Source: Clostridiales bacterium (lineage in GTDB: Bacteria; Bacillota; Clostridia; Christensenellales; Borkfalkiaceae). From it: a stretch of 64,000 nt of DNA. The translations under genes and the position numbers were made by a program. The DNA lies in the NCBI GenBank assembly GCA_015055805.1, contig SVHN01000001.1:241982-305981 (forward strand), in the 5' to 3' direction. Positions 9,859 through 52,445 of the stretch are shown here, piece after piece. A model generated the notes under the pieces. It worked only from the letters and a program-made list of their open reading frames with translations, was not told the origin of the DNA and made no database searches. Numbering within the stretch: the stretch's first letter is position 1; each line of letters opens with the position of its first letter.

Positions 9859-9892
9859 AAAAAAATAAGCGGAAAACACCGCTTATTTTTTT
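9859..9892 (+). terminator. Rho-independent terminator after the GH42-like gene
   Basis: Perfect 14-bp stem (AAAAAAATAAGCGG / CCGCTTATTTTTTT) with an AAAACA loop. Confidence 0.9.
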
Positions 9893-9960
9893 ATTTACTG
9901 CAAAAACTATCATAAAAGTATCACACTTTTTCATTAAAATCTTAACTATTTGAAAGGCTA

Positions 9961-9988
9961 TTGACAACGATAAAATTTATGCTATCAT
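9961..9988 (+). promoter_or_regulatory. Promoter of operon A
   Basis: TTGACA (9961-9966), 16-base spacer, TATCAT (9983-9988). The predicted start near 9995 puts the conserved 10001-10020 box inside the leader. Confidence 0.7.
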
Positions 9989-10000
9989 AAAAAATATCAA

Positions 10001-10020
10001 TAAAATGGTGCAATAGGATT
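10001..10020 (+). promoter_or_regulatory. Leader box shared with operon B (copy A)
   Basis: TAAAATGGTGCAATAGGATT matches 31509-31528, upstream of operon B, at 19 of 20 positions. Each copy begins 12-13 bases after its -10 element. It could be a regulator site, a sequence acting in the mRNA leader, or a remnant of the operon duplication. Confidence 0.55.
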
Positions 10021-10040
10021 AAAAATAAGGGGAAAAACAG

Positions 10041-10886: not shown

Positions 10887-11725
10887 TGAATATAGGTGTT
10901 TTAATCCGCTACGAAGGCGAATTAAAGGAAAAACTTAATTTTAAGGAAAGATTTATCGAAGCCCAAGAAATGGGCATTTCAAGCTGTCAGTTATGCTTTC
11001 CTACAGGTGAAGGCTATACCGATCAAGTGGCTGAAAAAATAGTCTCGGCAGTAAAAGAAACGGGATTTAACGTGTCGCTTTTATGGGCTGGTTGGTCTGG
11101 AAAAAACGAGTGGAACTTCACCGAAGGACCGATAACCTTAGGTATCGTACCTAAAAAGTTTAGAAAGATAAGGGTTAAAGAATTAGAAGCGGCATCTGTT
11201 TTTGCAGAGAAGATAGGTGTTAAAGATATTGCAACCCACGTTGGTTTTATCCCCGAAAACCTTACCGATAAAGAGTACGAACCGCTCATAAAAACGCTCA
11301 GAAAACTTTGCTTGTCATATAAGAGCAGGGGGCAAAACTTCTTGTTTGAAACAGGACAAGAAACACCCGTAACACTTCTTAGAACGATAGAGAAAATCGG
11401 TACTGGCAACGCATTTATAAATTTCGATATGGCAAACCTTATCCTTTACGGTAAAGCAAACTCGGTTGACGCCGTAAGAGTTTTCGGCAAATACGTCCGC
11501 AATACGCACGTAAAGGACGGCTTGTACCCAACGGACGGCATGAAACTCGGCAGAGAAGTTAAGGTGGGCGAAGGTCTTGCTAACTTTCCAGTGTTAATTC
11601 CTATGCTGATAGAGTGTGGGTACGACGGACCTTTTACCATAGAAAGAGAAATTAGTGGGGATAAGCAAAAGAGCGATATAGCAGACACCGTTACGTACTT
11701 AAAGAATATAGTAGGCGAGAAATAA
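10886..11725 (+). CDS. Sugar phosphate isomerase/epimerase-like TIM-barrel protein
   Basis: 279 residues of the xylose-isomerase-like/AP-endonuclease 2 TIM-barrel family. Visible family blocks are the start 'MNIGVLIRYEGELKEKLNFKERFIEA', 'GVKDIATHVGFIPE' (metal-ligand His strand), 'FLFETGQE' (Glu ligand), 'AFINFDMANLILYG' (Asp ligand), 'RNTHVKDGLYP' (His) and 'PFTIERE' (Glu). Together these look like a complete divalent-metal site. Starts at the A of the AraC stop codon. Probably isomerises or epimerises a sugar or sugar acid produced by the operon. A second, distinct paralogue follows. Confidence 0.85.
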   Translation: MNIGVLIRYEGELKEKLNFKERFIEAQEMGISSCQLCFPTGEGYTDQVAEKIVSAVKETGFNVSLLWAGWSGKNEWNFTEGPITLGIVPKKFRKIRVKELEAASVFAEKIGVKDIATHVGFIPENLTDKEYEPLIKTLRKLCLSYKSRGQNFLFETGQETPVTLLRTIEKIGTGNAFINFDMANLILYGKANSVDAVRVFGKYVRNTHVKDGLYPTDGMKLGREVKVGEGLANFPVLIPMLIECGYDGPFTIEREISGDKQKSDIADTVTYLKNIVGEK

Positions 11726-11748
11726 AAACTTTATAAAAGGGACTAACA

Positions 11749-25478: not shown

Positions 25479-25619
25479 ATGAAAAGAAAGTATTTACCCC
25501 CAACGGCATACCTAGATATGCTTGAACCGCTCGACGTGCTTACCACATCAACTACAGGTCAAAGCGTCGACCAAAGTAACGGCGACCATATTCAATACTG
25601 GTCGGACGACGTAATTTAA
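25479..25619 (+). CDS. 46-residue tail peptide (operon A)
   Basis: A short ORF with an excellent ribosome site (AAAGGAGG at 25463-25470) and ATG 25479. The N terminus MKRKYLPPTAYLDMLEPLD is followed by VLTTSTTG and the acidic/aromatic end VDQSNGDHIQYWSDDVI. Eleven of the twelve residues of VDQSNGDHIQYW match the tail of the lipoprotein ending at 25415, and the DNA is identical over two dozen bases. There is no secretion signal or Cys. The pattern Y-x-x-P followed by D-[VI]-x-x-x-S is shared with the operon B peptide at 42951. Leader-like N terminus plus variable C terminus recalls a peptide precursor, but no maturation enzyme is nearby. Confidence 0.7.
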   Translation: MKRKYLPPTAYLDMLEPLDVLTTSTTGQSVDQSNGDHIQYWSDDVI

Positions 25620-37217: not shown

Positions 37218-39707
37218 ATGTGGAAAAGTAGAATAAGAAATTTATGTATAATTCTTGCTTTGGTGATGAGTTTTAGTTGTTTTAGCTCTTGTGGGAAGAA
37301 AGACCCAAACTCTGTTTCTGCGGATAACGTAGATATCTGGGGTTGCCATGCAAGTATTAAAGTGTTACAAAGCTTTTTAGATAAAAACGGCGAAGAGTAT
37401 AACGATGCAACTTATTACGACGACGTAAAGCAAGACGCAAAAGTTTCCATCGTTATGGCACGAGGTGAATACGAGGGCGCGCAAATTATTATTACGCCCG
37501 AAGTGGACGTTGACTATTACGACGTAAAAGTTAGCGACCTAAAAACTTCTGACGGCTCTGCTGTTATTAATCAAGATCAGATTAGTGTATATCACGAAAA
37601 ATATCTTATCGTAGAAAAGAACGGTGAAAAGAACGGCGCGCCTTTGGGATATTATCCCGATGCAATAGTTCCTTTCGATAAAATTATAGAATATAAAGAA
37701 AATAAAATCGTAAAGAACGAAAACCAAGGCGTCTATATGACGGTGGAATCAGCACTTGACCAAAAAGTAGGAACGTATACGGGCACAATGACGATTGACT
37801 TTAAAACGTATACGAAGGACGTACCTATTAGCGTAGAAGTGGTTGATTTTACAGTCAATCCAGAAACCCATGCAAAAAGTACCTTTCTTACCAACTGGAA
37901 CGCACATCACGCTGAATTAGATACGTCACAAAGAATGATAGACGCTTACACGGATAAGCTTATCGAATACCGACTTGCACCGTTTGGTATCTATAAAGAA
38001 AATGACCACAGCGACCAAGGTATTCAAGCTTGGCTTGAAAAAGCATACGCTTTGCTCAAAAACCCAAGACTTAGTTGTTTAAGTATTCCTTATAAGGAAG
38101 TAGCAGGTTCAAAGGGTACTGTTATTGATAGGGGAATTTTTGAGAAGTATTTGTACGCGATTGCAAAAAAATCTTTTGAAGAAGATTTTAATATGTTCAA
38201 AAAGCTTATTGTATATAACGTAATTTTGGACGAAGCAATACAACGCAAACTTCCCGACGAGCAGATTTTGGAAAACGGTGAAATATTTAACACCACGGTA
38301 AAAAAAGTGGCAGATGCTTTGGAAACGGATACTACAATCACTTCTTCAGTTAAAGCAGAGGCGATTGCATCACTAAGAGTGATGCCGCACGTATGCACTT
38401 TTTGGTATCAGGATAAATATTCCGATTATAATACTGATGCTTACATTAATGCTTACTGTCCAAAGTTCTACTTTGTAGATACGGAAGGTGAGAGAGAACA
38501 ATATCGTCTAGATGAAAAATCAGTAGAGCTTTGGTGGTACGGCTGTAACGACCCGATTCATCCTTACGTCGATTATCATCTTGAGCACACGACCAACTTA
38601 AACACTCGTTTGCTAAGTTGGATGCAAGCCGAATACGATATCGCAGGAAATTTATATTGGGCGGTAAACGACTACGGCTTGAAAGAAGATTATTATGATA
38701 ATTATTGGGATGATCGTTTGGCTGTAAGTAATGAAGGTGTACTTTTCGCACCTGGCGGACAGTACGGTCTAGACGAGCCGGTGGCAACGTTGAGACTAGA
38801 AGGCATTAGGGACGGCATGGAAGAATACGAAATTCTCTATGCAATGAAACAAAAGTATAAAGAACTAGGACTTCCTGCAGACGAGTTCGTTTCTGCACTA
38901 TCTTCAAGTTTATATAGCAGCGCGCAAGTACTAGCAAGCGTAGATAACTTTGTAGATGCAAGAGAAGCGTTGTTAGCGGCGGCGGTTGCAGCGCATTCTC
39001 CGGCAGAACTTTGCATTATAAGTTCGACGGATAATGGCGATGGTACGATAACGACAAAAGCTTATATTAAAGATGGTTATGAGTTGAAAAGCAATGGTAA
39101 AACGCTTACCGACCGCATAGCGCACGGTGAAGGTTGGATTTATACGACCACGACTAATTTAGACCAAAATGAAAACTATATCGACCTTTCATATGAAGCA
39201 AACGGAACGACCTATTCTTACACAAAATACGTAGGCGGCAAGGCGCAAATCATTAGCGCAGAGAATTTCTATGACTGTTTTGAAGAAGATACGGCGGCAG
39301 TAACGCCGACGCTAGTGGACGGGGAAACGATCGGAATGACCGGACAATACGCAAGACTAGCGATAGACGCGCTAGACGGATCTTCGCAGATGATATCGTT
39401 CATATCTTCTGAATTAAACGAAGCGGCAAATAAAAATGCCGAAAAGGTTATTTTCACAATATATAACGATAGCGCGAAAGAGATACCGCTTACCTTATCA
39501 GTCAAGTATAAAAAACAAAGCATTTATAGCGCAAGACCTCAAGCGATATTAAAACCGAAAACGACGACGCTAGTAGAAATACCGTTAGCAAACGTTCAAT
39601 GGGCGACCATGGGCGCAATGGAAAAGGTACGTTTGTGGTTTGGCGATACGGACAATGAAGACAGTAAGGTCGTATACGTAAAGAACGTATTGATTTATGG
39701 GAAATAA
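37218..39707 (+). CDS. DUF4091 lipoprotein, putative cell-surface glycoside hydrolase (operon B)
   Basis: 829 residues; lipobox FSSC (Cys25). An N-terminal beta-sandwich carries 'YYPDAIVPFDKII'. The barrel region carries 'LWWYGCNDPIHPYVDYHLE', 'LSWMQAEYDIAGNLYWAVNDY' and 'LRLEGIRDGMEEYEILYAM', the same DUF4091 hallmarks and order as the operon A paralogue. One difference: the operon A sequence 'YGYDEPEL' is replaced by 'NVILDEAIQ', so a Pro typical of the acid/base strand is absent and the activity could differ. The beta-rich C-terminal 230 residues are probably a carbohydrate-binding region. Confidence 0.8.
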   Translation: MWKSRIRNLCIILALVMSFSCFSSCGKKDPNSVSADNVDIWGCHASIKVLQSFLDKNGEEYNDATYYDDVKQDAKVSIVMARGEYEGAQIIITPEVDVDYYDVKVSDLKTSDGSAVINQDQISVYHEKYLIVEKNGEKNGAPLGYYPDAIVPFDKIIEYKENKIVKNENQGVYMTVESALDQKVGTYTGTMTIDFKTYTKDVPISVEVVDFTVNPETHAKSTFLTNWNAHHAELDTSQRMIDAYTDKLIEYRLAPFGIYKENDHSDQGIQAWLEKAYALLKNPRLSCLSIPYKEVAGSKGTVIDRGIFEKYLYAIAKKSFEEDFNMFKKLIVYNVILDEAIQRKLPDEQILENGEIFNTTVKKVADALETDTTITSSVKAEAIASLRVMPHVCTFWYQDKYSDYNTDAYINAYCPKFYFVDTEGEREQYRLDEKSVELWWYGCNDPIHPYVDYHLEHTTNLNTRLLSWMQAEYDIAGNLYWAVNDYGLKEDYYDNYWDDRLAVSNEGVLFAPGGQYGLDEPVATLRLEGIRDGMEEYEILYAMKQKYKELGLPADEFVSALSSSLYSSAQVLASVDNFVDAREALLAAAVAAHSPAELCIISSTDNGDGTITTKAYIKDGYELKSNGKTLTDRIAHGEGWIYTTTTNLDQNENYIDLSYEANGTTYSYTKYVGGKAQIISAENFYDCFEEDTAAVTPTLVDGETIGMTGQYARLAIDALDGSSQMISFISSELNEAANKNAEKVIFTIYNDSAKEIPLTLSVKYKKQSIYSARPQAILKPKTTTLVEIPLANVQWATMGAMEKVRLWFGDTDNEDSKVVYVKNVLIYGK

Positions 39708-39728
39708 GAATAAAGGAGTGAACTAAAA

Positions 39729-41024
39729 ATGAAAAAACTAATATGTTTATTGTTAGCATTGATAACGTGTTTTACTTCTTTGTTCGTTGTTGGCTGTAAA
39801 GATAAAAAAGCCGAAGAAGTCAAAGACGACAGTAAAATCATGTTTGCTGATTTTGAAGAGTGGGGACCGAACTTTCAAACAATGGCACTGTACGGTTATT
39901 TTGGTCGTATAACAAGAAATACCGACACTAAGTTTGTAAAAGGCGGTAACTATTCGGCAAAGTTGCAACCAGTCGGTGGAAGAGTTTCTATAACTTCACC
40001 TTGCTTTGTAATGCCCTTAAAATCAGATCTGTTCGATTATGATTATTCCGATTTTACCTATTACGAAGAAGTAAGCGCGTATTTGTATAACGATTCAGAA
40101 AAGGCCATTACAATGACGTTTGGTTTAGCAGCATCGCACAACAATTCAACAGCAACGCTTATGGCTGGCGAAAAAGTAGTGCTTGCGCCCAAAACGTGGA
40201 CGAGGGCGAGCTATCTAGTAGACTGTACGTTTTTAAGTATTGCAGGTGACCCAACGGCAATATCGGGCGTATACTTCCAGTTCCCTGACACGGGAGTGGA
40301 ATATCCCGATCAAGCACCAAGTATTTATCTAGATAACGTAGTGCTTACCAAGGCAGCTGAACAAGCAACGATTGACGGTGGCTTAGAACTAGATAAGACG
40401 GATACGACGACGGAAATTTGCGACTTTGAAAAAATCTGGCAAAAATACGCGTATAGAGCAGAAGTTCGTGAAGAAATTGGCGAAGTAAAAATCGTAAAGG
40501 CAGCCGACTATGATATTACTGCTAGTTCAGGTGAAAACGTATTGCGCGTAATGCGTACAAATACCATACAAACCAACTTCAACGTAACCATACCCGCACA
40601 ACTAATGAAAGCGGCAGGGCTAGATAAAGTCCCTGAAGAAGACTGGGCAAGTACTTACTTCTGTTTCGATATGTATAACGATTCTGATAAGTTCGCTCAA
40701 TATCACGCAATTTGGGCATATACGGAATCTGGAACTCACATTATCCCAAATAAATGGAAAGGATCTAAGGATAAGAAGGAATATGATTGGGCACCCGTTA
40801 ATGGCTATTATACGTGGCCACGTCCCGAGTATGGAAAATGGACTAGTTATAAGATTTCTCTTTGGGAACTTTCACGAGGCTTAAACGCAAAAGAGTACGT
40901 AACAAAAACTGGCGGATTTGCAATGACGTTCGCAACGCTACCAGCAGCGGACGGCGAAGAATGGGTAGTATTCCTAGACAACTTCCGTCTAGAAAAGGGC
41001 GAGAAACTTGAAGGCGTAAATTAA
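39729..41024 (+). CDS. Lipoprotein with two 'DFE' beta-sandwich domains (operon B)
   Basis: 431 residues. Lipobox FVVGC (Cys23). Two beta-sandwich halves begin with 'MFADFEEWG' and 'EICDFEKIW' and end with 'APSIYLDNVVLTK' and 'WVVFLDNFRLEKG'. Full-length paralogue of 22269 in operon A ('RITRNTDTKFVKGGNYSAKLQPVGGR' region aligned). Ribosome site AAAGGAG. Probably a surface glycan-binding subunit working with the DUF4091 and Ig-type lipoproteins; no catalytic motif seen. Confidence 0.75.
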   Translation: MKKLICLLLALITCFTSLFVVGCKDKKAEEVKDDSKIMFADFEEWGPNFQTMALYGYFGRITRNTDTKFVKGGNYSAKLQPVGGRVSITSPCFVMPLKSDLFDYDYSDFTYYEEVSAYLYNDSEKAITMTFGLAASHNNSTATLMAGEKVVLAPKTWTRASYLVDCTFLSIAGDPTAISGVYFQFPDTGVEYPDQAPSIYLDNVVLTKAAEQATIDGGLELDKTDTTTEICDFEKIWQKYAYRAEVREEIGEVKIVKAADYDITASSGENVLRVMRTNTIQTNFNVTIPAQLMKAAGLDKVPEEDWASTYFCFDMYNDSDKFAQYHAIWAYTESGTHIIPNKWKGSKDKKEYDWAPVNGYYTWPRPEYGKWTSYKISLWELSRGLNAKEYVTKTGGFAMTFATLPAADGEEWVVFLDNFRLEKGEKLEGVN

Positions 41025-41036
41025 GGAGATGAGAAT

Positions 41037-42806
41037 ATGAATAAAATCAAAAAATTATTTATCTTAATTTTAAGCGCGATAACCTTGATTTGTGCAGCGT
41101 TAGGACTTGTAGGCTGTAAGGATAAAGACAATGCGATTGAACTTGTCGGGTTTAACGACGTAACGGTAGAAGGCGCGCTATACGAAGATTTCTCGGTGTC
41201 AAGTTACGTTATGGTAGTTGATACGGAAGATAACGTGTATAAAGGCACGGTGGAAGTAACCGATCATGAGAACAATCCCGTAGAGCTAACGTTCAACCGT
41301 TTTGAACTTAATTCGTTAAATCCCTATACTATTAAAGTAAGCGTACAATTGCCGAGCGGAGAAGTAAAGACGCGTGTAATTACCATAGAAGTAAAAGATA
41401 AATCCGCGCCGAAGTTTATATATTCGTCTAAATTGTATACTGGTACGGTAGGCTCTGTCTATACCTTGCCGACAGTAACGGCGACAAAGGTAACGGGCGA
41501 CGTACTTGAACCAACTATAAAAGTATATTTTATGGACGGTGGCTCGGAGAAAGAACAGACGATAACGGACGGAAAATTTACACCGCAACAAGCAGGAAAG
41601 TATACTTTGCGTTCAACTGCAATCGATAAATATAACGACGAGTACGTGAATGAAAAAACGATTGTTGTTCGTCCTCAAATGCCTGAAAAGATGCTAGAAG
41701 ACTTTGGACACGCAAACAGCGTAGAGAATGCGACAGGCGGACTAAGCTTTTTGAGCGGACCATCTACCGGAACTTATCTTGCGACCAAGACTGATAGCGA
41801 AGAAACGACCGCAAACGGCGTAGTTGCGTTTTCCATTTGGTACAGTAACCAAGTTGCCGCAGGAAGATTTAATAAAACCCAAGCGGAATTAACGGAAATA
41901 ATTAAGAAAGTTGACGCAATCACCTTGCACTTTATGATTGAAAGAGAGGGCTTTGAAGAATTTGCATTTAGATTCTTTGGCGTACAGCAAACTGTTCCCG
42001 TTGGCAAATGGACGGCAATTTGTGTTTCCAAGGAACAAATTTTTTCCAAAATGCAAGGCGCAACAGAAGAAGAAAAGATTGCGGACTTTGCCAAGGCATA
42101 TAGCGTTACAGGCTCAGGCGTATCCAAAGGCGGTTGCCGTATATTCGGTGCGCCTATCGGTGATATGACGGGCAAAGGTCTTCCAGTTTGGGTTGATGCA
42201 ATCTATTTAGGTATGCCCGAACTTGCTGAAAACGTATTAGACGATTACACGTACGGTTTAAGCACGAATAACGTCGCTTCTGGCGCAGTAAGCTTCGCGC
42301 AAGATCGTAAAGGTACGCATTATGCAAGTTTTACTGACGGCGAAGGAACGGTAGCAAACGGCGTTGTTTACGGACAAATGTGGTACACAAATCAAGTTCT
42401 TCCAGTACGTTTCAATAGAACGGAAAGCGAACTATTAAGCATTATGCAAGACTTGAAAACGCTAACTGTTAGACTTCTTGTCAAACATGGTGAAGACCAA
42501 ACGATTGTTGTAAAACTGTTTGGTGTAGCAAAAGAAATCCCCACGAACAAGTGGACGGAAATTACCGTTACTAGATCGGAAATATTATACGCTATGTCAG
42601 GCGCAACGCAAGAAGAAAAAATTGCAAAGTTTGCTGAAAATTTCTGCTCGACAGGCTCTGGCGACGCACCAAGACTGTTTAGCGCAGCTATTGCTGGATC
42701 TGGTGTAAGTTTAGATATGTATTTTGACAGTATCACTTTTGAAAAAAAGGAAATACAGGAAGATAACCCTTACGATCCGTCTTTAGACGACGTGTATATT
42801 CCGTAA
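41037..42806 (+). CDS. Ig-domain lipoprotein with duplicated beta-sandwich module and C-terminal tail (operon B)
   Basis: 589 residues. Lipobox GLVGC (Cys27). Two Ig-like domains (about 35-120 and 121-210, 'AGKYTLRSTAIDKYND'), then two copies of a module of about 165 residues (about 215-390 and 395-570) with signatures 'MLEDFGHAN', 'RFNKTQAELTEI', 'TVPVGKWTAICVSKEQIF', 'FAKAYSVTGSG', 'VWVDAIYL'. Related modules occur in the secreted proteins 43094 and 45415. Ends with NPYDPSLDDVYIP, a tail shared with the peptide at 42951. Architecture is equivalent to 23598 of operon A although module and tail sequences differ. Confidence 0.78.
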   Translation: MNKIKKLFILILSAITLICAALGLVGCKDKDNAIELVGFNDVTVEGALYEDFSVSSYVMVVDTEDNVYKGTVEVTDHENNPVELTFNRFELNSLNPYTIKVSVQLPSGEVKTRVITIEVKDKSAPKFIYSSKLYTGTVGSVYTLPTVTATKVTGDVLEPTIKVYFMDGGSEKEQTITDGKFTPQQAGKYTLRSTAIDKYNDEYVNEKTIVVRPQMPEKMLEDFGHANSVENATGGLSFLSGPSTGTYLATKTDSEETTANGVVAFSIWYSNQVAAGRFNKTQAELTEIIKKVDAITLHFMIEREGFEEFAFRFFGVQQTVPVGKWTAICVSKEQIFSKMQGATEEEKIADFAKAYSVTGSGVSKGGCRIFGAPIGDMTGKGLPVWVDAIYLGMPELAENVLDDYTYGLSTNNVASGAVSFAQDRKGTHYASFTDGEGTVANGVVYGQMWYTNQVLPVRFNRTESELLSIMQDLKTLTVRLLVKHGEDQTIVVKLFGVAKEIPTNKWTEITVTRSEILYAMSGATQEEKIAKFAENFCSTGSGDAPRLFSAAIAGSGVSLDMYFDSITFEKKEIQEDNPYDPSLDDVYIP

Positions 42807-42950
42807 GGCTATAGTGGGGGGTGGAAATGATGAAATAAAGAAAAAAACCAACTAAAAAAAGTATTACAAAGCAATCACAAATCTTATTAGAAAAAAGACA
42901 AACTCAAAACAAAAAATTAAAAATACGCTAAAAGCGTAAGGGAGAAGACA

Positions 42951-43073
42951 ATGACAACAAAAAAGAGTTATACTCCCGCAATAATTAACCTAGTATTGTT
43001 GACAAAGGACATTATGAACGAATCACAGACACCACTTAATTACGATCCGTCCTTAGACGACGTATATCTTTAA
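42951..43073 (+). CDS. 40-residue tail peptide (operon B)
   Basis: Short ORF with ribosome site GGGAGAAG 5-10 bases before ATG 42951. N terminus MTTKKSYTPAIINLVLLTKD, then IMNESQTPLNYDPSLDDVYL. The last 11 residues repeat the tail of the lipoprotein ending at 42806 (DPSLDDVY identical; DNA nearly identical). Like the operon A peptide it has Y-x-P near residue 7 and D-[VI]-x-x-x-S near residue 20, with no secretion signal. Lies directly before the secreted protein 43094. Confidence 0.7.
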   Translation: MTTKKSYTPAIINLVLLTKDIMNESQTPLNYDPSLDDVYL

Positions 43074-43093
43074 GGTTAATGGGAGGTAAGAAA

Positions 43094-45118
43094 ATGAAAC
43101 AAAGAAAAAATAAACTTATTAAATGGTTAGCAGGGGTTGCGTTGTGCACCGCACTCATAAGCACGGCAACGGGTGTTGCTATTGCTGATACTGCTACACC
43201 GATAAGTGAAGCGGATTATAAGATTGAAATGGTTGGCGCGGAAATTCGTACCGACGCTCACTATGGTATCCGTTTCAAAGCAACAACAAAAGCCGTTAGA
43301 CCTGGTTCTAAATACTACGTTATGATAGTTCCCGCAAAATGGCTAACGGAAACCGATTATGATCTTCAAAACGCAGCAGACGGCGATTACTACGCTCACT
43401 TAATAGGTAAAGGTCTTAGCGACGTGGACGATCCCGCAACTGAAGACGTAAACGAACGTGACTTTATCACTATGCAAACTGAGCCCGAGAAAATAGGCGA
43501 CAACTTGTACGAATTGAAAGGCACGATTAGTAACGTGCATTTCACAAACAGCAACACTAAGTTTTTCGGTATAGCATACGAAGAGATGGCTAACGGCACG
43601 CGCAATTACGCTGAAAGAAATGATAAATCTGTTAGAAGTATTTGTTGGGTAGCAGGTGCTGCATTAAACGACGAAAACTTTGATGGCGATAAAACAAACC
43701 TTAAACCCACCATTGATAGAGCATACGATCTTATCACCAACGGCACAGAAACTGGCGCAACGCTCGACCTTTCTAAGGTTGGATTTAAACAAAACGTATA
43801 CTATACGCTAGATAAAGGATCGGTAACCCCGTTGGAAATGGTTGGTCTTCCCAAGGAGGAAAAACTTGATCTACCTATCGAATATTCGGTGGATGGAACT
43901 TCAGCCATCACGGAAGACGGCGTGTTGACGGTCAATGATGAAACTGGTTACTCTTTCGTGAAAGCAAAGATCGCAGGGGAAACCAAAAATCTTATCGTTT
44001 ACCACACTCCCAAAATGGCAGAGGGTATGTTGCAAGATTTTGCCGCTTCGCATTACGAGAATGAAAATGGCTCTACAAGAACGTACGATATCAACACCTA
44101 TGAAATTATTCCAACAACTAGTAGCGGTGAATGGGTGGAATCGTATACCGATGCTCACGGCAATATAGGATATGGTGTTGGTAAGGCGACGAAAGATAAG
44201 ACGTACTATTCATGTGGATTAAGGTTGAATGCAAGCAGAGCGGAACTTGAGGCAATGAACATTGAAACGATTACCGTTCGTTTTTGCGCAACTAGCCCTA
44301 ACGCAGTTGCGAATTTGAGTGTACGGTTTTTCAATGGAGGATATACGGCGTATCCCGTTAACACATGGAGTTATTACACTGTTACGAAGGCAAGTCTTAT
44401 TAGCGGACAAACAGGTAGTACGGACGAAGAAAAGTGGAATTCTTTCTTGGACCTGTATTGCAATACGGGTACGGGTAAGATCATAGGTGGCAATGATGGT
44501 GGCTGTCAAAATTATGATAGTGGTACGCAGGGAAAAGTAACGTTCTATATCGATTACGTAAGCGTTGGTACGATAAGAATGGAAGAGCACGAATTAGAAA
44601 ACTTTAATCTTCCAAAAAGTGTTGCGTTAAATAATTACATTACTTCTAACATGGCATTACCGGGTAATGCAAATAATATCAGTCTTGTTGAAACTCAAGC
44701 TGACAGCAGTGGCAAGACTGCTTATAACGTTGCAAAAGTAACGATCACGTCAGGTAGTTCTGGCTATGCTACGATGCGTTTTGCAAGAACGGCAGAAGAG
44801 CTTACGGCTATGATGGGAACGTTAGATTCAATAACCTGGCGTATTATGGTGGATAAAGCCGTAACGTTGAAGATTTTAGGTAATGAGATTACGACGCTTA
44901 CTGCAAATAAATGGACGGACGTAACGCTTACAAAAGCACAAATACTTACAAACTTTACGGGTGCTAATGAGGCGGAAAAAATTAGCAAATTTGCATCAGC
45001 GTTCTGTTCAACAGGGACTGGAAATGCAGCAGGTAGAATGTTTTCTGTGCCTTCAGCGGATTGTCCAGTTAATTTATATGTTGACGGCGTTACCTACACG
45101 ACCACTACGGCTGAATAA
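43094..45118 (+). CDS. Secreted GIRF-domain protein with two beta-sandwich modules (operon B)
   Basis: About 674 residues. The frame opens at 43079, but ATG 43094 follows GGGAGGTAAG and begins a clear signal peptide (cleavage near AIADT). The GIRF domain (about 40-220) contains 'GAEIRTDAHYGIRFKA', 'YYVMIVPAKWLTE' and 'FFGIAYEE'. After a short linker, two modules of the 41037 type follow ('MLQDFAASHYENEN...RLNASRAELEAM...YPVNTWSYYTVTKASLI...YIDYVSVG' and 'ARTAEELTAMMGTLDSITWRIMV...NKWTDVTLTKAQIL...FCSTGTGN...LYVDGVTYT'). No lipobox or anchor. Twenty bases after the tail peptide stop. Confidence 0.78.
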   Translation: MKQRKNKLIKWLAGVALCTALISTATGVAIADTATPISEADYKIEMVGAEIRTDAHYGIRFKATTKAVRPGSKYYVMIVPAKWLTETDYDLQNAADGDYYAHLIGKGLSDVDDPATEDVNERDFITMQTEPEKIGDNLYELKGTISNVHFTNSNTKFFGIAYEEMANGTRNYAERNDKSVRSICWVAGAALNDENFDGDKTNLKPTIDRAYDLITNGTETGATLDLSKVGFKQNVYYTLDKGSVTPLEMVGLPKEEKLDLPIEYSVDGTSAITEDGVLTVNDETGYSFVKAKIAGETKNLIVYHTPKMAEGMLQDFAASHYENENGSTRTYDINTYEIIPTTSSGEWVESYTDAHGNIGYGVGKATKDKTYYSCGLRLNASRAELEAMNIETITVRFCATSPNAVANLSVRFFNGGYTAYPVNTWSYYTVTKASLISGQTGSTDEEKWNSFLDLYCNTGTGKIIGGNDGGCQNYDSGTQGKVTFYIDYVSVGTIRMEEHELENFNLPKSVALNNYITSNMALPGNANNISLVETQADSSGKTAYNVAKVTITSGSSGYATMRFARTAEELTAMMGTLDSITWRIMVDKAVTLKILGNEITTLTANKWTDVTLTKAQILTNFTGANEAEKISKFASAFCSTGTGNAAGRMFSVPSADCPVNLYVDGVTYTTTTAE

Positions 45119-45183
45119 ATTTTAGAAAAGTTTTGAGTTTTGTTGTTTATTAAAGATAAGATTATTTGATGTACATCATAGGT

Positions 45184-45220
45184 AACTTCTACCGCTGGAT
45201 TTTTCCAGCGGTAGGAAGTT
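45184..45220 (+). terminator. Large hairpin between 43094 and the mini-lipoprotein
   Basis: About 16-bp GC-rich stem (ACCGCTGGA / TCCAGCGGT core, one bulge) with a T-rich loop. No clean T run follows (CCCTAATAT), so it may be a partial terminator or mRNA stabiliser. Confidence 0.5.
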
Positions 45221-45257
45221 CCCTAATATAGCGTTTATTTTAATTAAGGGAAATAAG

Positions 45258-45404
45258 ATGAAGAAAAAAATATTGTTGATTATGATGGCGGTTTTATGCG
45301 TTTTAACGTGCGCATTTTCCGCTTGTAAACAAGATAAGCCTGACGTAGAGAGTCCGCCTGTTGGGGAATATAACGACCCAGTAATGGACGATATTTACGC
45401 ATAA
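45258..45404 (+). CDS. 48-residue mini-lipoprotein with tail
   Basis: ATG 45258 follows AAGGGAAATAAG. A lipoprotein signal peptide ends in FSAC (Cys22). The mature part is only about 27 residues: KQDKPDVESPPVGE then YNDPVMDDIYA. The ending resembles the 41037/42951 tail (DP-x-x-DD-[VI]-Y), so this is a membrane-anchored minimal form of the tail. It stops 10 bases before the secreted protein 45415, repeating the peptide-then-GIRF gene order. Confidence 0.7.
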   Translation: MKKKILLIMMAVLCVLTCAFSACKQDKPDVESPPVGEYNDPVMDDIYA

Positions 45405-45414
45405 GGAGAAAAAT

Positions 45415-47046
45415 ATGAAAAGAGAACAAAAGGTTATTTTAACTTGGCTTTTGTCCTTTATTGCAACTATTTGTTTGTTGCTTGGTTTTTTTGCGATTTT
45501 ACCGCAAAAAGCGGTGGCATCGTCGGAAGATTTTTCTATGACCAAAGCAGAAGTTCGTTTGGACGATAATAGCGGTATACGCTTTACGGCAAAACTAACT
45601 GCATCTGCTTACGAAGATAATTGTGAATATTACGTTATGATAATCCCTTACGATTGGTTTGACGAATATAACTTATCGTTCGGTGATGATTATTATGACG
45701 TTTTGATAAATGAATATGAAATAAAGCCTGAAGACGTGTTGATTATGCGCTCGTCGCCTGTTCAGCAAACTTCGGGAGACTATCTCATTTCAGGTAGTAT
45801 TTCTAAGGTTTTATATAAAAACAGTAACCGTGAGTTTTTCGGTATTGCGTATAAACAGGATAGCGACGGAAAAAGAACTTATGCAACGGAAGATAAGTCG
45901 TACATAAAAAGTCTTGCAGCTGTTGCCGTTGCGGCTACAAAGGTAGAGAACGCTAATTACACTCAAAGTGAAAAGGCTGAGCTTGATTCTATGATACGCC
46001 GTGCGTTCAACCAACTTTCTGGCAAAAAAGAAAATAACCAAGGCGCGATTGTTTTTCAGATGAATACGGCAAAAATGAGCCTTTCTCAAGGTGATACGGC
46101 TAATTTAAGCGTACGATATGCCGAAGAGTTGGGATTTGACGTTGTTTGGGAAAGTCAAGATAAAAGTAAGGCGACGGTGGACAAAAACGGAAAAGTAACC
46201 GCGCTTGTTTCCGAGGGCGTGTGCAGCGTTACGGCAAAAGTATACGGACAGACTTGCACTACCGTGATAATGTTCCGTCCTAAAATGGCAGACAACTTTT
46301 TGGAAGATTTTTCGCACGAAGGTAGCGCGCTTAATATGAACACGAGTAATTGCGGCGACCTAAAACAATCGGGAACGTGGCTAGCAAGTTTTAAAGGGGC
46401 GCAAGGCGTTGGCTATTGTCTTGCTTATAAATCCATGAACGCTTTGGCTGTGCGTTTTGGGCGTAGTTTAGAATACCTAAAGAACTTAGACTTTGATAGT
46501 ATTACCGTTAGGCTTTATATGGATTGGGAAGGCGTGGATAAAAAAACGGGTGAGCCTATAAGAAAACATTCGCTTTGCATCGGAACTAAACGTGAATTAA
46601 ATGTTCCCACTAAAGAGTGGTATGATTTTACCGTTACCAAAAACGAACTGTTATCTAATCGCGAAGGGAATACGGCAAAAGAGCGGCACGAAAATTTTTG
46701 TAAAACCTTTAACAATGCAGGTTCGGGACAATTTTTAATGAGTTTTCACGACGGTAATAATTCCATTCCTATTTATATTGACTCAATAACTTTCGGGTTT
46801 ATTGACGTTGAAAAAAAGGCTGCCCCAACGTCGGCAGGTGAAACGTTTATATTGCCAACGGCAAAGCTTTTAGCTGGTGAAACGATATTATCAGAAGAAT
46901 ATAGTGTAAACGTTAAAGTTGGTGAAACCGAAGTCGCTGTAAATAACGGTGAAATTATAACGCAAAACGGAACTACGGTAGTAGAATATACTTTTATATA
47001 CGACGGTGTTACTTATAAAAAAACGTACGTCTTTGACGTGAATTAA
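45415..47046 (+). CDS. Second secreted GIRF-domain protein with Big2-like domain (operon B)
   Basis: 543 residues. Signal peptide with likely cleavage after AVA. The GIRF domain (about 40-205) reads 'KAEVRLDDNSGIRFTAKL', 'YYVMIIPYDWFDEY', 'FFGIAYKQ', closely parallel to 43094. A Big2-like Ig domain follows ('VVWESQDKSKATVDKNGKV', about 220-290), then a single 41037-type module ('NFLEDFSHEGS', 'DSITVRLYMDWEG', 'VPTKEWYDFTVTKNELL', 'IYIDSITFG') and a short C-terminal beta domain. Ribosome site AAGGAG. A surface or secreted binding protein; enzymatic activity not indicated. Confidence 0.75.
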   Translation: MKREQKVILTWLLSFIATICLLLGFFAILPQKAVASSEDFSMTKAEVRLDDNSGIRFTAKLTASAYEDNCEYYVMIIPYDWFDEYNLSFGDDYYDVLINEYEIKPEDVLIMRSSPVQQTSGDYLISGSISKVLYKNSNREFFGIAYKQDSDGKRTYATEDKSYIKSLAAVAVAATKVENANYTQSEKAELDSMIRRAFNQLSGKKENNQGAIVFQMNTAKMSLSQGDTANLSVRYAEELGFDVVWESQDKSKATVDKNGKVTALVSEGVCSVTAKVYGQTCTTVIMFRPKMADNFLEDFSHEGSALNMNTSNCGDLKQSGTWLASFKGAQGVGYCLAYKSMNALAVRFGRSLEYLKNLDFDSITVRLYMDWEGVDKKTGEPIRKHSLCIGTKRELNVPTKEWYDFTVTKNELLSNREGNTAKERHENFCKTFNNAGSGQFLMSFHDGNNSIPIYIDSITFGFIDVEKKAAPTSAGETFILPTAKLLAGETILSEEYSVNVKVGETEVAVNNGEIITQNGTTVVEYTFIYDGVTYKKTYVFDVN

Positions 47047-47095
47047 AAAGATAAAAAAGACGGCTAGAATTTATTTGGCTAAAAGTGAGTGAATT

Positions 47096-48478
47096 ATGGA
47101 ATACAACGTTTTAAAATACGGTGCGGTCGCAGACGGTAAAAGTCTTGACACAAAAGCCGTTCAAGCGGCGATAAATGCTTGTTCTTTGACGGGTGGGCGC
47201 GTTTTCTTCCCAAAAGGAACTTACGTTCTTTCAAGCGTGTTTTTAAAAAGCAACGTTGAGATTGTTTTTGATGACGGGGCGCAGATTTTAGGTAGCCTAG
47301 ATTTTAACGATTACTGCCCTGACGAAAAATTAGATTATCCGTTATATCAAGATAAATCGCATTCGTGCTTTCATTGTTCAATGTTTATAGGCATTGACTT
47401 AGAGAATATCAAAATAACAGGAAATGCCAAGATTGATATGCGCAGCGTTTGGGACGAAGAAAACGTTCGCAACATGGCGCATAGGGGCGCAAAATGTATT
47501 GCGCTAAAGAACTGCAAAAAAGTAGTGCTTAGCAATTTTGAATTGAATTTTGCAACCGACTTAGCCATTTATTTTGCTGGGTGTGAAGACGTCGATATTT
47601 ACGGAATTAAAATGCGTACTTATATAGACGGAATATCACCTGATAATTGCAAGAACGTACGTATTCACGATTGTGAAATAGAAGCAGGGGACGATGCGAT
47701 AGTATTTAAAAGTTCGTATACTTTAAACCGTTTGGATATATGCTCAAATATAAATGTATGGAATTGTAAATTGAAAAGCCGTTGCTATGCAATTAAATTC
47801 GGTACCGAATCAAACGGTGGATTTACTAATATTCAAATTGATAATATTTATATATGCGATACTAGAATATGTGGCGTTGGGATTGAAAGTGTTGACGGCG
47901 CAATTATAGACGGAATATCTATTAAAAATATTAAAATGAAAAACGTAAACGTACCGTTATTTGTATTTTTAGGCAAGCGCATGAGAGGGCCTAAAGGCCG
48001 AGCAATAGGTCGGATACGCAATATTCTCTTTGAAAATATAACGGCAACGGGCGAGTATGGACCTTATGAAATTGTTCCTTGCTTTTACGATACTTTTAAA
48101 GCTAACGACTGGTTTCAAGATCCTAAAAAATTCGGTATTGCTGCAGGACTTTTTGCTGAAGAATATACTGACGTTTGGCAAATGACGTCTAATGTTTGCG
48201 GATTGCAGGGAATACCGCTTGAAAATATAACAATTAGAAATGCTTATTTTGAACTTGACGGTGGCGTTACAGCTTATAACAAAGACGTTCCCGAAGAGTG
48301 TCAAGATTATCCTGAAGTGTATAATTACGGGCGGATTTTACCTGCAAAAGGTATTTATTTTAGGTACGTAGACGGTTTAACTCTTGACAACGTAACGGTA
48401 AAAGTTGATCGAAAGGATATTCGTAAAGATTTTGTTTTTGAAAAATGTGAAAACGTAAATGTACAAACAAACGAATAA
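47096..48478 (+). CDS. GH28-like right-handed beta-helix protein (polygalacturonase-related)
   Basis: 460 residues, no signal peptide. The start matches GH28 ('VLKYGAVADGKSLDTKAVQAAINACSLTGGRVFFPKGTY'), with repeated beta-helix coils. The acidic sites are kept: 'YIDGISPDNCKNVRIHDCEIEAGDDAIVFKS' supplies the three Asp positions. The canonical catalytic His segment (HGG-type) is replaced by 'RCYAIKFGTESNGG', and the RIK substrate-binding motif by 'GVGIESVD'. So it belongs to a divergent branch and may not be a classical polygalacturonase. Fifty bases after 45415 and probably co-transcribed. The cytoplasmic location suggests action on imported, already shortened fragments. Confidence 0.75.
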   Translation: MEYNVLKYGAVADGKSLDTKAVQAAINACSLTGGRVFFPKGTYVLSSVFLKSNVEIVFDDGAQILGSLDFNDYCPDEKLDYPLYQDKSHSCFHCSMFIGIDLENIKITGNAKIDMRSVWDEENVRNMAHRGAKCIALKNCKKVVLSNFELNFATDLAIYFAGCEDVDIYGIKMRTYIDGISPDNCKNVRIHDCEIEAGDDAIVFKSSYTLNRLDICSNINVWNCKLKSRCYAIKFGTESNGGFTNIQIDNIYICDTRICGVGIESVDGAIIDGISIKNIKMKNVNVPLFVFLGKRMRGPKGRAIGRIRNILFENITATGEYGPYEIVPCFYDTFKANDWFQDPKKFGIAAGLFAEEYTDVWQMTSNVCGLQGIPLENITIRNAYFELDGGVTAYNKDVPEECQDYPEVYNYGRILPAKGIYFRYVDGLTLDNVTVKVDRKDIRKDFVFEKCENVNVQTNE

Positions 48479-48494
48479 CAATATATAAAAAATT

Positions 48495-48532
48495 AAAAGG
48501 AGGGTGCTTTAATAGCACGAAAGAATAAAATG
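48495..48532 (+). promoter_or_regulatory. Distant Shine-Dalgarno with intervening hairpin before 48530
   Basis: A strong AAAAGGAGGG (48495-48504) lies 26 bases before ATG 48530. A 5-bp stem GTGCT/AGCAC (504-508 with 514-518) sits between them and would shorten the effective spacing to about 11. Confidence 0.45.
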
Positions 48533-49744
48533 AAAAAAATTAGATTAGGAATGTTTGGCGTTAACAGAGGAAGTGCTTATTATGATATCGTAAGGGCAAA
48601 CGAGGGTGAACTCGTCGCAATTTGCGAAAAAGACGAGGAAAGATGCCAACAAGCAAAGGAATATTGGGGCGAAAATCTTGCTATTTATGATAATTTCGAC
48701 GAGTTTATCAAACACGATTTGGACGCGGTGTTTATTTGTAATTATTTTCATGAACACGCGCCGTACGCTATTAAATGTATCGAAAAAGGCATACCTGTTT
48801 TAAGTGAATGTACTGCCGCAGGAACGATTGCCGAAGCCGTAGAGCTTGTTAGGGCTGTTGAAAAGTATAAAACAATCTATATGCTCGCAGAAAATTATCC
48901 CTATATGTTATTCAACCAAGAAATGCGCAGAATTTATAGAAAAGGCGAACTTGGAACACTGTTATTTGCCGAAGGCGAATACAATCACCCTGCGAATAAA
49001 TTAGACCCTAATCCTGAAAAAACTGCTAAAACTTTACACCCGTTTTTAGAACATTGGCGTTATCATTTGCCGCGTACTTATTATTTGACTCACTCGCTTG
49101 CGCCGCTTATGTGGATTACTGGGGTTCGTCCTACGAAAGTAACTGCTATGCCTATTTATAAGCCAGAAGTAAATGGCGGACCTTATGTTGGAGATATCGG
49201 TGCGGCAATGCTTATCACTAATGATGATAATTCGGTTTTCCGCGTATTTGGGCACGCAAGTTTTGGGTTTAGAGAAGATTCTTATAGGATAGTCGGTACA
49301 AAAGGTCAGATTGAAAACATTAGAGGCGGTGGTAACAAAGTTGCTTTGAATTTCAATCTGTGGGATATCCCGGAAGGCAAACAAGAAAACAATATATATT
49401 TGCCAGAATGGGGTTCGGAATGGGAAGACGTTGATATTGAAACCTTGAAAAAATATGGGCACGGTGGTAGTGACTATTTCACGATACACGAATTCTTTAA
49501 ATGCATAAGGGAAAATTGTCAGCCGGAAATGGACGTTTACTTTGCTACTTCTATGTCGGTTGCAGGGATTCTTGCCTTCCGTAGTATATTAGAGAACAAA
49601 CCTTTTGATATACCGAATATGAAAGATGAAAGTGAAAGAAGTAAATTTGAAAACGATAGGGAGACGCCTTTCTATTCAAGTGACGGCGGTGTGCCTACGA
49701 TAAGGTGCTGTTCAAATCCTGATCACGGTAAAAACAATAAATAA
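48530..49744 (+). CDS. Gfo/Idh/MocA family oxidoreductase (operon B end)
   Basis: 404 residues. Rossmann start 'RLGMFGVNRGSAYYDIV'. The usual EKP is replaced by 'VLSECTAAGTIAEAVEL', with Cys-Thr in place of Lys-Pro, and the catalytic region reads 'YYLTHSLAPLMWITG' with a His but no D-x-H-x-x-D. This deviation is seen in family branches whose chemistry is unclear. The C-terminal end has two Cys and a His (RCCSNPDHG) that could bind metal. Fifty-one bases after the GH28-like gene; last gene before the 49757 promoter. Confidence 0.82.
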   Translation: MKKIRLGMFGVNRGSAYYDIVRANEGELVAICEKDEERCQQAKEYWGENLAIYDNFDEFIKHDLDAVFICNYFHEHAPYAIKCIEKGIPVLSECTAAGTIAEAVELVRAVEKYKTIYMLAENYPYMLFNQEMRRIYRKGELGTLLFAEGEYNHPANKLDPNPEKTAKTLHPFLEHWRYHLPRTYYLTHSLAPLMWITGVRPTKVTAMPIYKPEVNGGPYVGDIGAAMLITNDDNSVFRVFGHASFGFREDSYRIVGTKGQIENIRGGGNKVALNFNLWDIPEGKQENNIYLPEWGSEWEDVDIETLKKYGHGGSDYFTIHEFFKCIRENCQPEMDVYFATSMSVAGILAFRSILENKPFDIPNMKDESERSKFENDRETPFYSSDGGVPTIRCCSNPDHGKNNK

Positions 49745-49756
49745 TTTTTCTTTTTC

Positions 49757-49785
49757 TAGACAAAATTAAATAAATGTTGTATAAT
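49757..49785 (+). promoter_or_regulatory. Sigma-A promoter for the 49855 gene
   Basis: TAGACA (49757-49762), 17-base spacer, TATAAT (49780-49785). Confidence 0.75.
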
Positions 49786-49826
49786 AATTTGGCATATGTA
49801 AATGTTTGCATGTGCCAAATTATTTA
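49783..49826. promoter_or_regulatory. Large inverted repeat overlapping the -10 and start site
   Basis: AATAATTTGGCATATG is repeated inverted as CATGTGCCAAATTATT (one G-U) around a 10-base centre. It begins in the -10 hexamer and covers the predicted start of transcription. Either a repressor operator or a 5' mRNA hairpin; there is no T run, so not a terminator. Confidence 0.65.
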
Positions 49827-49854
49827 CATTAAAATAGTATTGTAGGAGAGTAAA

Positions 49855-51297
49855 ATGCTTGTTTGTATTGCAAAAGGGTTTGCGCTATTTCGTACTTATT
49901 TTGACGAGAAATACGATTTGATACAAAAATTTCGCGGCGTTGAATTAAGCTCTAATCGTTATAATCAGCCTGTTGATTTTATGGAATCGGGGCTTATGCA
50001 AAGGGATAAATGGGACTACTGGCACATTGACGTTCCTTTTGCACTTAACACCGACGAAGCTGCGCCTGTTTTCATAAATGATAGTTATATCGGGGCAAAT
50101 CACGGACACAATGGTGCGGTACAAGTTTATGCGCCAAAACATAATAAAACGTTTGCCGACGTAGGCTCGCTATGGCAAGATGATTTAGGCAATAAATTCA
50201 CGCTTTTGACTATTGTAAACGAAGATTATTTAATATTTGTATCAGAAAACGTAGGCGAGAGTGTTGAAAACTATTCTTTTGTTAAGAAGATAGTCGGAAA
50301 CTTAATATATCTTGAAAATGGTAACGATACGGAAGATATTTTGCCTGAAAAGCAAAATGCAACCGATTTATGTAGGGCAATCAGACACAAAGCAAAAAAC
50401 GTTTACGCTTTTATAGATGGTAAAGACCGTGTAGTAAACGGTGAAATAATTTGCGACTATGCTGAAATTCGTGAAGAATACGACATAATTAATCCAGCAA
50501 CCGTTGCGGAAGATTTGCGTAAACAAAGACCTAACGGCGGATATAAATGTCAACCTAATTTAGCCGAGTACGGAAAGCCGATGATGGCGTGTTCTTTGGT
50601 TTATCGCGTTTTAGACGACGGAACGATTCTTACTATTTTTAACTATAAAAAATTAATGAACGTCCGAGTTCAAAAATTTATGGGCTTGATGAATCAAGAA
50701 AAACTTGACGTCTACAGCGGCGGTATTTGGAGATATTTTCCAAAGATTTTGCCGTTTGATACGCCTGAGGGGCACTTTGATTATTCTCAACCTTCAAATA
50801 TTACGGCTGGGAATAATTACCCTAGAAATATTGTTTTAAATAGAGAGTATTTTAGAGACAATAATTCCCCCTGTGAAAGAGTCGTAGATTATTTTAGAGA
50901 TAGGACAGGGCAAGATAGATTAGGCTTTGCTAGTGGATTTTTGCCTGTGTATGACGGTGAAATAAAGGTTCGCGATAAGAGCGTGTCTAACGTCTTGCAT
51001 TTAATTCTGACACGCAAACATTATCCAACTTTTACAGACAAAGATTTTAATGAGATTAAGGGCGTAGCGTATAAAAAATACTTTATACCTAAGCAAAATA
51101 AAGGCTCTGTATACACAGTATCGTTTGAAGATAAAAAATATTTATATATTGACGTATTTGAAAATAAAGAAATAAAAGTTCCATATCAAGGCGACGCCAC
51201 TTTATTAGAAAAAGGCGAAAGTATAGATTATAATATAGAAGACGATACTATTATAGTGTCTGGCGAAAAAGGCTATGCCGTATTTGTTTTGCAATGA
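49855..51297 (+). CDS. Unrecognised 480-residue protein, possibly carbohydrate-active
   Basis: 480 residues with no signal peptide or membrane segment. ATG 49855 follows GTAGGAGAG. The sequence is rich in Tyr, Asp and Asn with many short beta strands. Notable segments are 'VFINDSYIGANHGHNGAVQVYAP', 'DVGSLWQDDLGNKFTLL', 'DYWHIDVPFALN' and 'YRVLDDGTILTIFNYKK'; the His-rich 'GANHGHN' could be a metal or catalytic site, as in some polysaccharide lyases. I do not recognise the family. Alone between its own regulated promoter and a strong terminator, it follows the GH28/oxidoreductase end of operon B, so a role in uronic-acid oligosaccharide breakdown is plausible but unproven. Confidence 0.6.
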   Translation: MLVCIAKGFALFRTYFDEKYDLIQKFRGVELSSNRYNQPVDFMESGLMQRDKWDYWHIDVPFALNTDEAAPVFINDSYIGANHGHNGAVQVYAPKHNKTFADVGSLWQDDLGNKFTLLTIVNEDYLIFVSENVGESVENYSFVKKIVGNLIYLENGNDTEDILPEKQNATDLCRAIRHKAKNVYAFIDGKDRVVNGEIICDYAEIREEYDIINPATVAEDLRKQRPNGGYKCQPNLAEYGKPMMACSLVYRVLDDGTILTIFNYKKLMNVRVQKFMGLMNQEKLDVYSGGIWRYFPKILPFDTPEGHFDYSQPSNITAGNNYPRNIVLNREYFRDNNSPCERVVDYFRDRTGQDRLGFASGFLPVYDGEIKVRDKSVSNVLHLILTRKHYPTFTDKDFNEIKGVAYKKYFIPKQNKGSVYTVSFEDKKYLYIDVFENKEIKVPYQGDATLLEKGESIDYNIEDDTIIVSGEKGYAVFVLQ

Positions 51298-51335
51298 GTG
51301 AAAAATTAAATAAACAGTCAATTTGTAAAAAAGAA

Positions 51336-51374
51336 GAGAACCCAAAAGTTTAACAAACTTTTGGGTTCTCTTTA
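51336..51374 (+). terminator. Rho-independent terminator after the 49855 gene
   Basis: Perfect 16-bp stem GAGAACCCAAAAGTTT / AAACTTTTGGGTTCTC with an AAC loop and T-rich tail. Confidence 0.92.
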
Positions 51375-51375
51375 T

Positions 51376-51454
51376 ATCTATCACCGACTTTTTTGCTTTA
51401 AAAATATTGCGAAACAAAACGCTCTAATTTTCCATTAAAATGAAAGTATTAAAT
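51376..51454 (+). repeat. Dispersed repeat remnant (copy 1)
   Basis: The stretch from 51376 resembles 57043 onward (TCTATCA-CG-CTTTTTTG, TAAAAATA-TGCGAA). 51437-51454 (AAAATGAAAGTATTAAAT) is identical to 58789-58806. The interval 51375-51559 holds no gene. Confidence 0.55.
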
Positions 51455-51559
51455 AACGTCTTACGATTTGATCTATTTGTTTTATGGGTATCGTAAATTA
51501 AAAAATCGAATGTATGTCAATTTAAAGTATAAAAAATTTTGATGACTTTTAATTTTTAG

Positions 51560-51588
51560 TTGCATTTGTTAATAAAATATATTATAAT
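51560..51588 (+). promoter_or_regulatory. Promoter of the glycine-riboswitch transcript
   Basis: TTGCAT (51560-51565), 17-base spacer, TATAAT (51583-51588). The leader then carries the riboswitch. Confidence 0.8.
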
Positions 51589-51611
51589 CAAAAAAAATAA
51601 ATATGTAATTG

Positions 51612-51808
51612 TTGGGTGATAAAAGCGGAAGAGAACGATTATTCGTCACCGAAGAAGTAATGCTTTCAGGTAAAAGGACCGCTTTTTGACAACACTTTGG
51701 AGAATGCGTTAACGCTACCGAAGAAGCAATTTGTTTTATAGCAGAGAATCTTTCAGGTAAAAAGACAAAGATGTGTTTAGGAGTAAACATGGACTCTGTC
51801 TTTTTTTG
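51612..51808 (+). ncRNA. Tandem glycine riboswitch with terminator expression platform
   Basis: Two aptamers. The first (51621-51686) has P1 AAAAGCGG/CCGCTTTT, CACCGAAGAAGTAA and CTTTCAGGTAAAAGGAC. The second (51691-51777) has TGGAGA, TACCGAAGAAGCAA, CTTTCAGGTAAAAAGAC and P1 AACACTTTG / CAAAGATGTGTT. These are the conserved gcvT-type glycine riboswitch elements. The 3' P1 strand of aptamer 2 also belongs to a competing hairpin (51759-51770 with about 51794-51805, one mismatch) containing an inner TGTTTA/TAAACA stem with the ribosome site in its loop, followed by T7 (51801-51807). This predicts a glycine ON switch controlling the gene at 51789. Confidence 0.88.
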
Positions 51809-52445
51809 TTTGGAAATTTTAGGAGTAATCGCATTTTCTATATCGGGGGCATTAGTTGCTATAAGAAGTAAATTTGATATTTTCGGTGTTTTAGTGGTAG
51901 GTGTTATTACTGCTGTGGGTGGTGGAATTACAAGGGATATACTAGTAGGTCAGCTACCACCGAAAATATTTGATAACGCCTATTTGGTAGCGGTTGCAGC
52001 TCTGTCAGCCGTTTTAACATTCGTGCTTGCATATTTTAAGGGGAGAAAATTTTCCATTATCCAAGAAAAAATTGAAGAGATAAATAATTATTTTGATGCG
52101 CTTGGACTGGCGGTATTCACTGTGATGGGAGTGGAAACGACTTTAAATTATGGGTTTTCATATAATATACTTATTTGCGTAACAATGGGTGTTTTAACAG
52201 GAGTTGGCGGGGGATTGATGCGAGATATTTTCACTAGGTCAAAAATCAGTATATTCACAAAGCATGTTTATGCATTAGCGTCTATTGTTGGGGCGACTGT
52301 ATTTTATATATTACGAATCAAAATTCAATTTGCGACAATATCGACTTTAGTTGGCGTATTAGTAATATTTGTTTTAAGATTGTTTGCAACAAAATATCAC
52401 TGGGAACTTCCGAAGGCACACATTGAAGAAGATAAAGGAAAATAA
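51789..52445 (+). CDS. TRIC/UPF0126 (Gly_transporter) family membrane protein
   Basis: About 218 residues. An upstream in-frame ATG (51771) exists, but ATG 51789 has AGGAG 5 bases before it. Two homologous three-helix repeats carry the family glycine motifs 'AVGGGITRDILVGQLP' and 'GVGGGLMRDIFT'. The family is described as trimeric cation channels (TRIC) and, in Pfam, as glycine transporters. The tandem glycine riboswitch directly in front strongly suggests a glycine-related role, probably export or uptake of glycine; which direction is unknown. Confidence 0.9.
   Translation: MDSVFFCLEILGVIAFSISGALVAIRSKFDIFGVLVVGVITAVGGGITRDILVGQLPPKIFDNAYLVAVAALSAVLTFVLAYFKGRKFSIIQEKIEEINNYFDALGLAVFTVMGVETTLNYGFSYNILICVTMGVLTGVGGGLMRDIFTRSKISIFTKHVYALASIVGATVFYILRIKIQFATISTLVGVLVIFVLRLFATKYHWELPKAHIEEDKGK

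Follow-up and report, generated by a model that had tools for sequence, protein, structure and literature searches.

On the forward strand of the 64,000 nucleotides analysed here (the window), an open reading frame at positions 45258-45404 encodes a 48-aa lipoprotein, MKKKILLIMMAVLCVLTCAFSACKQDKPDVESPPVGEYNDPVMDDIYA, which lies directly 5' of a gene for a secreted protein, in a place that holds a small peptide gene in 49 of 51 cases. The protein looks like an anchored stand-in for the small peptide. In our view the chances stand about even that it is a genuine minimal lipoprotein whose useful part is the C-terminal tail, acting, as far as can be judged from sequence, as the lipid-anchored carrier of an exoprotein-specific tag that belongs to the exoprotein encoded at 45415. 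The tail would dock to a domain of this exoprotein named here, after its motif, the GIRF domain.

The reading frame is preceded by a TAAGG-type Shine-Dalgarno sequence and its stop codon is separated by 10 nt from the start of the next gene. Reading of the sequence and a lipobox scan placed a type II signal peptide at 45258-45326 (+), with a K-rich start followed by a hydrophobic stretch (MKKK-ILLIMMAVLCVLTCA) and the lipobox FSA/C23; the preliminary description had numbered this cysteine 22. A 14-residue linker leads to the C-terminal 11 residues, the tail YNDPVMDDIYA (45369-45401, +). The protein thus has all the features by which a bacterial lipoprotein (SPII) was recognised, namely K or R in the n-region, a hydrophobic stretch and a lipobox ending in Cys within about 35 residues. 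Among all open reading frames of 25-110 aa in the window, it was the sole match to a combined scan for a Shine-Dalgarno sequence and a lipoprotein signal, and the same scan on 15 shuffled windows gave one match in total. The protein has no family in Pfam or NCBIfam. Weak lipoprotein matches in the family libraries were discarded as similarity of the signal peptide alone. A small lipoprotein of the colicin-lysis or entericidin-like type was set aside as well, since these are not known to have C-terminal tags in common with their neighbours.

The tail connects the protein to two other genes of its operon, termed operon B. These are a 589-aa lipoprotein (41037-42806, +) ending DNPYDPSLDDVYIP and a 40-aa peptide (42951-43073, +) with the tail NYDPSLDDVYL, which lies 5' of its partner gene, a secreted exoprotein with a GIRF domain (43094-45118, +). 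The short lipoprotein follows, and after it the gene of a Sec-secreted exoprotein of 543 aa (45415-47046, +) with a GIRF domain at about residues 40-184 and a Big_2 domain. The 1.73-Mb genome as a whole contained three instances of the pattern DP-x-x-DD-[IV]-Y, always at a C-terminus and always in these three genes. Outside operons, 398 genomes of the family yielded four isolated matches and a reversed-pattern control about nine; the isolated matches were therefore rejected as relatives, being at chance level. The only other clustered case among the 398 genomes was G145, with a 237-aa lipoprotein (RDPARDDIY) followed by a 41-aa peptide (FDPGRDDIYELT).

Tails vary between operons, yet are common to the genes within one operon. 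Other tails are shared in the same manner in operon A of the window, where a lipoprotein (23598-25415, +) ending DVDQDNGDHIQYWQ is followed by a precursor peptide (25479-25619, +) ending SVDQSNGDHIQYWSDDVI and a secreted exoprotein with a GIRF domain (25633-27567, +), as well as in G109 and G145 and more weakly in G201 and G245. The strongest pair outside the window was found in G109 (L054), with a lipoprotein (7841-10885) of tail NDNDGKDVENWIV and a peptide (11608-11742) of tail NDNDGNDVENWYW. Tail pairs scored 73 in operon A, 69 in L054, 54 in operon B and 41 in G145, against best scores of 36, 34, 34 and 41, respectively, for C-termini from other loci; the outside match that ties with the G145 pair is the operon B lipoprotein itself, which has the identical tail type. 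The link that the preliminary description drew between small peptides and lipoproteins through a common tail thus holds, and further operons show it as well, each with a different tail. Codons were compared in regions picked for protein similarity, and the comparison served solely to rule out recent copying at the DNA level. Between the tails of the short lipoprotein and the operon B peptide, one of eight aligned codons was identical, four differed synonymously and three were conservative replacements; the tail of the short lipoprotein is thus not a fresh DNA copy. Its codons differ almost everywhere from those of both siblings in the operon while the residues are kept, and many synonymous differences with retained residues were also seen in the other aligned tails.

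The GIRF domain has a length of about 145 residues and the motif [GA]A.[IV]R...GIRF, and is common to the secreted proteins encoded downstream of the peptides (in exoprotein 45415-47046 at 45532-45966). It is unnamed in Pfam and NCBIfam, has no sequence relative in the PDB and is nearly confined to the source bacterial family (6/347 genomes of the order at the threshold used). A structure model (pLDDT 78, from a shallow alignment) presented a generic FnIII/Ig-like sandwich. A structural identity was rejected, because the best scores (Foldseek E 1.6e-3; VIA-align Z 7.6, rmsd 2.9, 98 aligned residues) were within the range of unrelated folds. The locus has a setting of carbohydrate type, with an ABC importer, a GH123-like lipoprotein (Pfam GH123 matches) and Big_2 domains, which suggests polysaccharide-active exoproteins kept near the cell. 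The window itself starts inside another GIRF exoprotein (57-842), the YxxP peptide of which, MKKFYETILAELTEFNADDVIMASPATGDGDNYLGDSGDLKGIGSIGDL, lies outside the window; the stretch just upstream has the coordinates G000:C18:240372-241086.

The gap between a peptide gene and its GIRF gene is typically -4 to 40 nt. In the genome of the window (G000), eight GIRF genes could be assessed. Seven are immediately preceded by a YxxP peptide; for the remaining one, 45415-47046, this slot holds the 48-aa lipoprotein. In total, 51 slots with a recognised carrier comprised 49 YxxP-type peptides, one of which (L177) gave a weak profile match, and two lipoproteins, both with an end of the form DP..[DE]DIY. 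The second lipoprotein has 102 aa, stems from another genus (G055, L211/L215) and is unrelated to the 48-aa protein. It consists of a signal with the lipobox AFAC, a Ser/Glu-rich linker and the end SDDPYGEDIYG, and its gene (L215) stops 13 nt before the GIRF gene of a genome in which PqqD, kinase and YxxP peptide were not detected. Its tail closely resembles those of some peptides, for instance DPYGQDGYDDG; two of 657 control C-termini and none of 1000 shuffles scored as high. For the tail of the 48-aa protein the likeness to tails of other genomes was moderate (4/657 control C-termini and 13/1000 shuffles as high). The notion that a minimal carrier presents the tail is supported by this equivalence of slot with the peptides and by the second short lipoprotein in another genus.

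The most serious alternative, in our opinion an unlikely one, is a decayed gene, in which an internal deletion in a paralogue of the 589-aa lipoprotein left signal and tail by accident. A single independent copy is known, and the shorter, 237-aa tailed lipoprotein of the G145 operon demonstrates that shortening occurs. Decay is at odds with the retention of the tail residues despite the exchanged codons, with the intact Shine-Dalgarno sequence and reading frame, and with a slot that otherwise holds a functional-looking peptide or, in the other genus, a second lipoprotein. The preliminary description regarded a lack of homologues with a conserved end as the sign of decay. On this point the outcome was divided: a contig scan for the 48-aa gene returned only an identical MAG contig and G145, hence no independent orthologue, while the G055 protein is an analogue in the same slot. 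The copy in G004 (SVHH01000006.1), with 100 % identity over 12.4 kb, was not counted as independent evidence. The identical region (L232 and G004:C8) covers 12,435 nt, corresponding to 39532-51966 of the window. The kinases of the G000 and G004 MAGs share only 62 % protein identity, so that misbinning or a recent transfer must account for the shared contig.

A lipid-anchored carrier of a tag for the downstream exoprotein agrees with the co-variation of tails and GIRF domains, which the preliminary description had missed. Over 51 carrier/exoprotein pairs, tail and GIRF similarity correlated with a Mantel r of 0.30 (p=0.00025, the floor of 4000 permutations), while leader and GIRF similarity did not (r=0.03, not significant). 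The correlation persisted in a non-redundant set of 35, when permutation was confined to each genus, and when only pairs from different genera were used. No significant co-variation with the tail was observed for the 35 residues before the GIRF domain, which are mostly signal peptide, or for the 120 residues after it (26 proteins where readable), control regions that differ in length from the GIRF domain and, where shorter, have less power. For the two slot lipoproteins taken singly, GIRF similarity predicted the similarity of their tails to those of the peptides (Spearman 0.56, p=3e-5, and 0.48, p=6e-4), and the tail of the 48-aa protein fits its own GIRF clade. Therefore the tail stays with the GIRF domain despite a change of carrier from RiPP leader to lipid anchor. 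Such co-variation can also result if neighbouring genes are inherited together while the tail is conserved, with no need for physical contact.

The peptides were taken as cytosolic-looking in the preliminary description, which overlooked their RiPP-type nature and a dedicated RRE and kinase encoded elsewhere in the genome. A profile of YxxP near the start followed by D-V/I-x-T-S gave 27 matches in operons, and 48 small peptides were found directly 5' of exoprotein genes; none of them belongs to a Pfam or NCBIfam family. Strict YxxP was present in 35/48, the operon B peptide fitting poorly with an off-consensus YTPA, and the C-terminal tails were highly variable. A Ser, as needed for phosphorylation, occurred at Y+17 to Y+20 in 45/48 peptides versus 7-17 for neighbouring ranges of positions. 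The genome of the window encodes one PqqD/RRE protein (66 bits), whose best named relatives, the lasso-peptide PqqD chaperones, are below cut-off; the adjoining gene encodes a 240-aa kinase-like protein with similarity to ScmC/HprK below the curated cut-offs. The RRE is a discrete protein, and both are encoded apart from the precursors. Presence of kinase and peptide agreed in 139/151 family genomes (58 both, 81 neither, 12 discordant; Fisher p=1e-27, a statistic that ignores phylogeny), and that of kinase and GIRF domain in 132/151. PqqD was present in 11/11 kinase-positive and in 0/18 kinase-negative genomes tested. Beside the RRE of relatives (L119-L121) a SpI/SipW-like peptidase is encoded (TIGR02228, 24-33 bits, below cut-off); in the RRE neighbourhood of the window's genome this leader peptidase is not adjacent, and neither a B2 protease nor a lasso cyclase lies beside the RRE and kinase genes. 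An ApbE-family (flavin transferase) lipoprotein adjoins the kinase/RRE pair divergently in L084 (10930-12030), and lipoproteins of similar size occupy this position in several relatives.

By sequence, the small peptides are therefore LPP-like precursors: the YxxP leader and the Ser at Y+17-20 agree with the linear polyphosphorylated peptides (LPP; Popov et al. 2026, PMC13381572), whose core genes, for an RRE and an HprK-like kinase, are present as well. In LPP precursors cleavage follows T-1, and the phosphorylated residue is S3, which lies 18 positions beyond the Tyr of the leader (PMC13381572); the Ser at Y+18/19 corresponds to it. Relatives including G145 moreover encode a putative archaeal-type signal peptidase I beside the RRE. 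The systems differ in that the precursors studied here lie apart from the enzymes and adjoin GIRF exoproteins, in that their leader is without HQxIxFET, and in that the mini-lipoprotein is without any leader. Prochlorosin precursors are unclustered as well, and a single set of modification enzymes acts on precursors encoded at many places in the genome. A single putative machinery with scattered precursors is also found here, although there is no lanthionine chemistry and the precursors are tied to exoprotein genes.

A second alternative, less probable still than decay, sees the tail as a C-terminal modification motif read by an enzyme and the 48-aa protein as a RiPP-lipoprotein hybrid. The closest known case of short lipoproteins and large proteins that end in a common motif is that of the DAG-RiPPs, such as DybA (Chen et al. 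2025, PMC12636315), whose motif is found on peptides, lipoproteins and proteins above 30 kDa. The likeness comprises the short peptide, the lipoprotein signal and a conserved C-terminal motif that recurs on large proteins, as for MNIO substrates (PMC12636315), and an RRE and a kinase are encoded in the genome. In DAG-RiPPs, however, a MNIO (DUF692) modifies a constant Cys motif, whereas the tail YNDPVMDDIYA has no Cys and the tails vary by operon, many different ones occurring in one genome and following the GIRF domain. Furthermore, G055 has a tailed lipoprotein without a detected RRE or kinase, and the target of the LPP kinase is a Ser close to the leader, a context in which the lipoprotein has no Ser. 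Its N-terminus is a lipoprotein signal that does not match the peptide HMM (E=56), so that a YxxP leader for RRE binding is missing. By the features examined, the 48-aa protein belongs to neither LPP nor DAG-RiPPs, as both an RRE leader and a Cys motif are missing. New here are the bare lipid anchor in place of a peptide and the pairing with the GIRF domain. A signalling lipopeptide, with tail or signal peptide released and sensed and the GIRF exoprotein a bystander, would suit the small size, the operon-specific ends and the lipoprotein-derived pheromones known in other Gram-positives, but is improbable, as no dedicated receptor, protease or export gene lies beside the reading frame in the window and the tail changes with the GIRF domain.

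As anchored carrier of a tag, the 48-aa protein would be exported by Sec, lipidated by Lgt and cleaved by LspA, which would leave a 26-residue lipopeptide on the outside of the membrane. Its tail may be the cognate tag of the secreted protein encoded next to it, in the simplest case a docking site that holds a carbohydrate-active exoprotein at the cell. The same tag would also be carried by the RiPP peptide and by the large lipoproteins with such a tail. Only tentatively, and with less confidence than in the single case, we extend this to a surface code of tags and receivers, in which each GIRF domain would recognise its own short acidic/aromatic tail, whichever carrier bears it; RiPP cores modified by the kinase, large lipoproteins that bind carbohydrate and bare lipid anchors would be interchangeable in this role. 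LPP-type RiPPs have been assigned no role yet (PMC13381572). Such a code, if true, would give them a biological one, their relatives here being linked individually to a single domain of secreted proteins from polysaccharide loci, with the tag also on lipoproteins. A bare lipid anchor with only the tag represents a natural minimal construct and makes the tag hypothesis directly testable as an 11-mer versus a 145-residue domain. In G189 (L068), two YxxP peptides of one operon (5497-5643 and 11328-11456) with the similar ends GFQDDFIV and GYENDFIV are each located 5' of a different gene.
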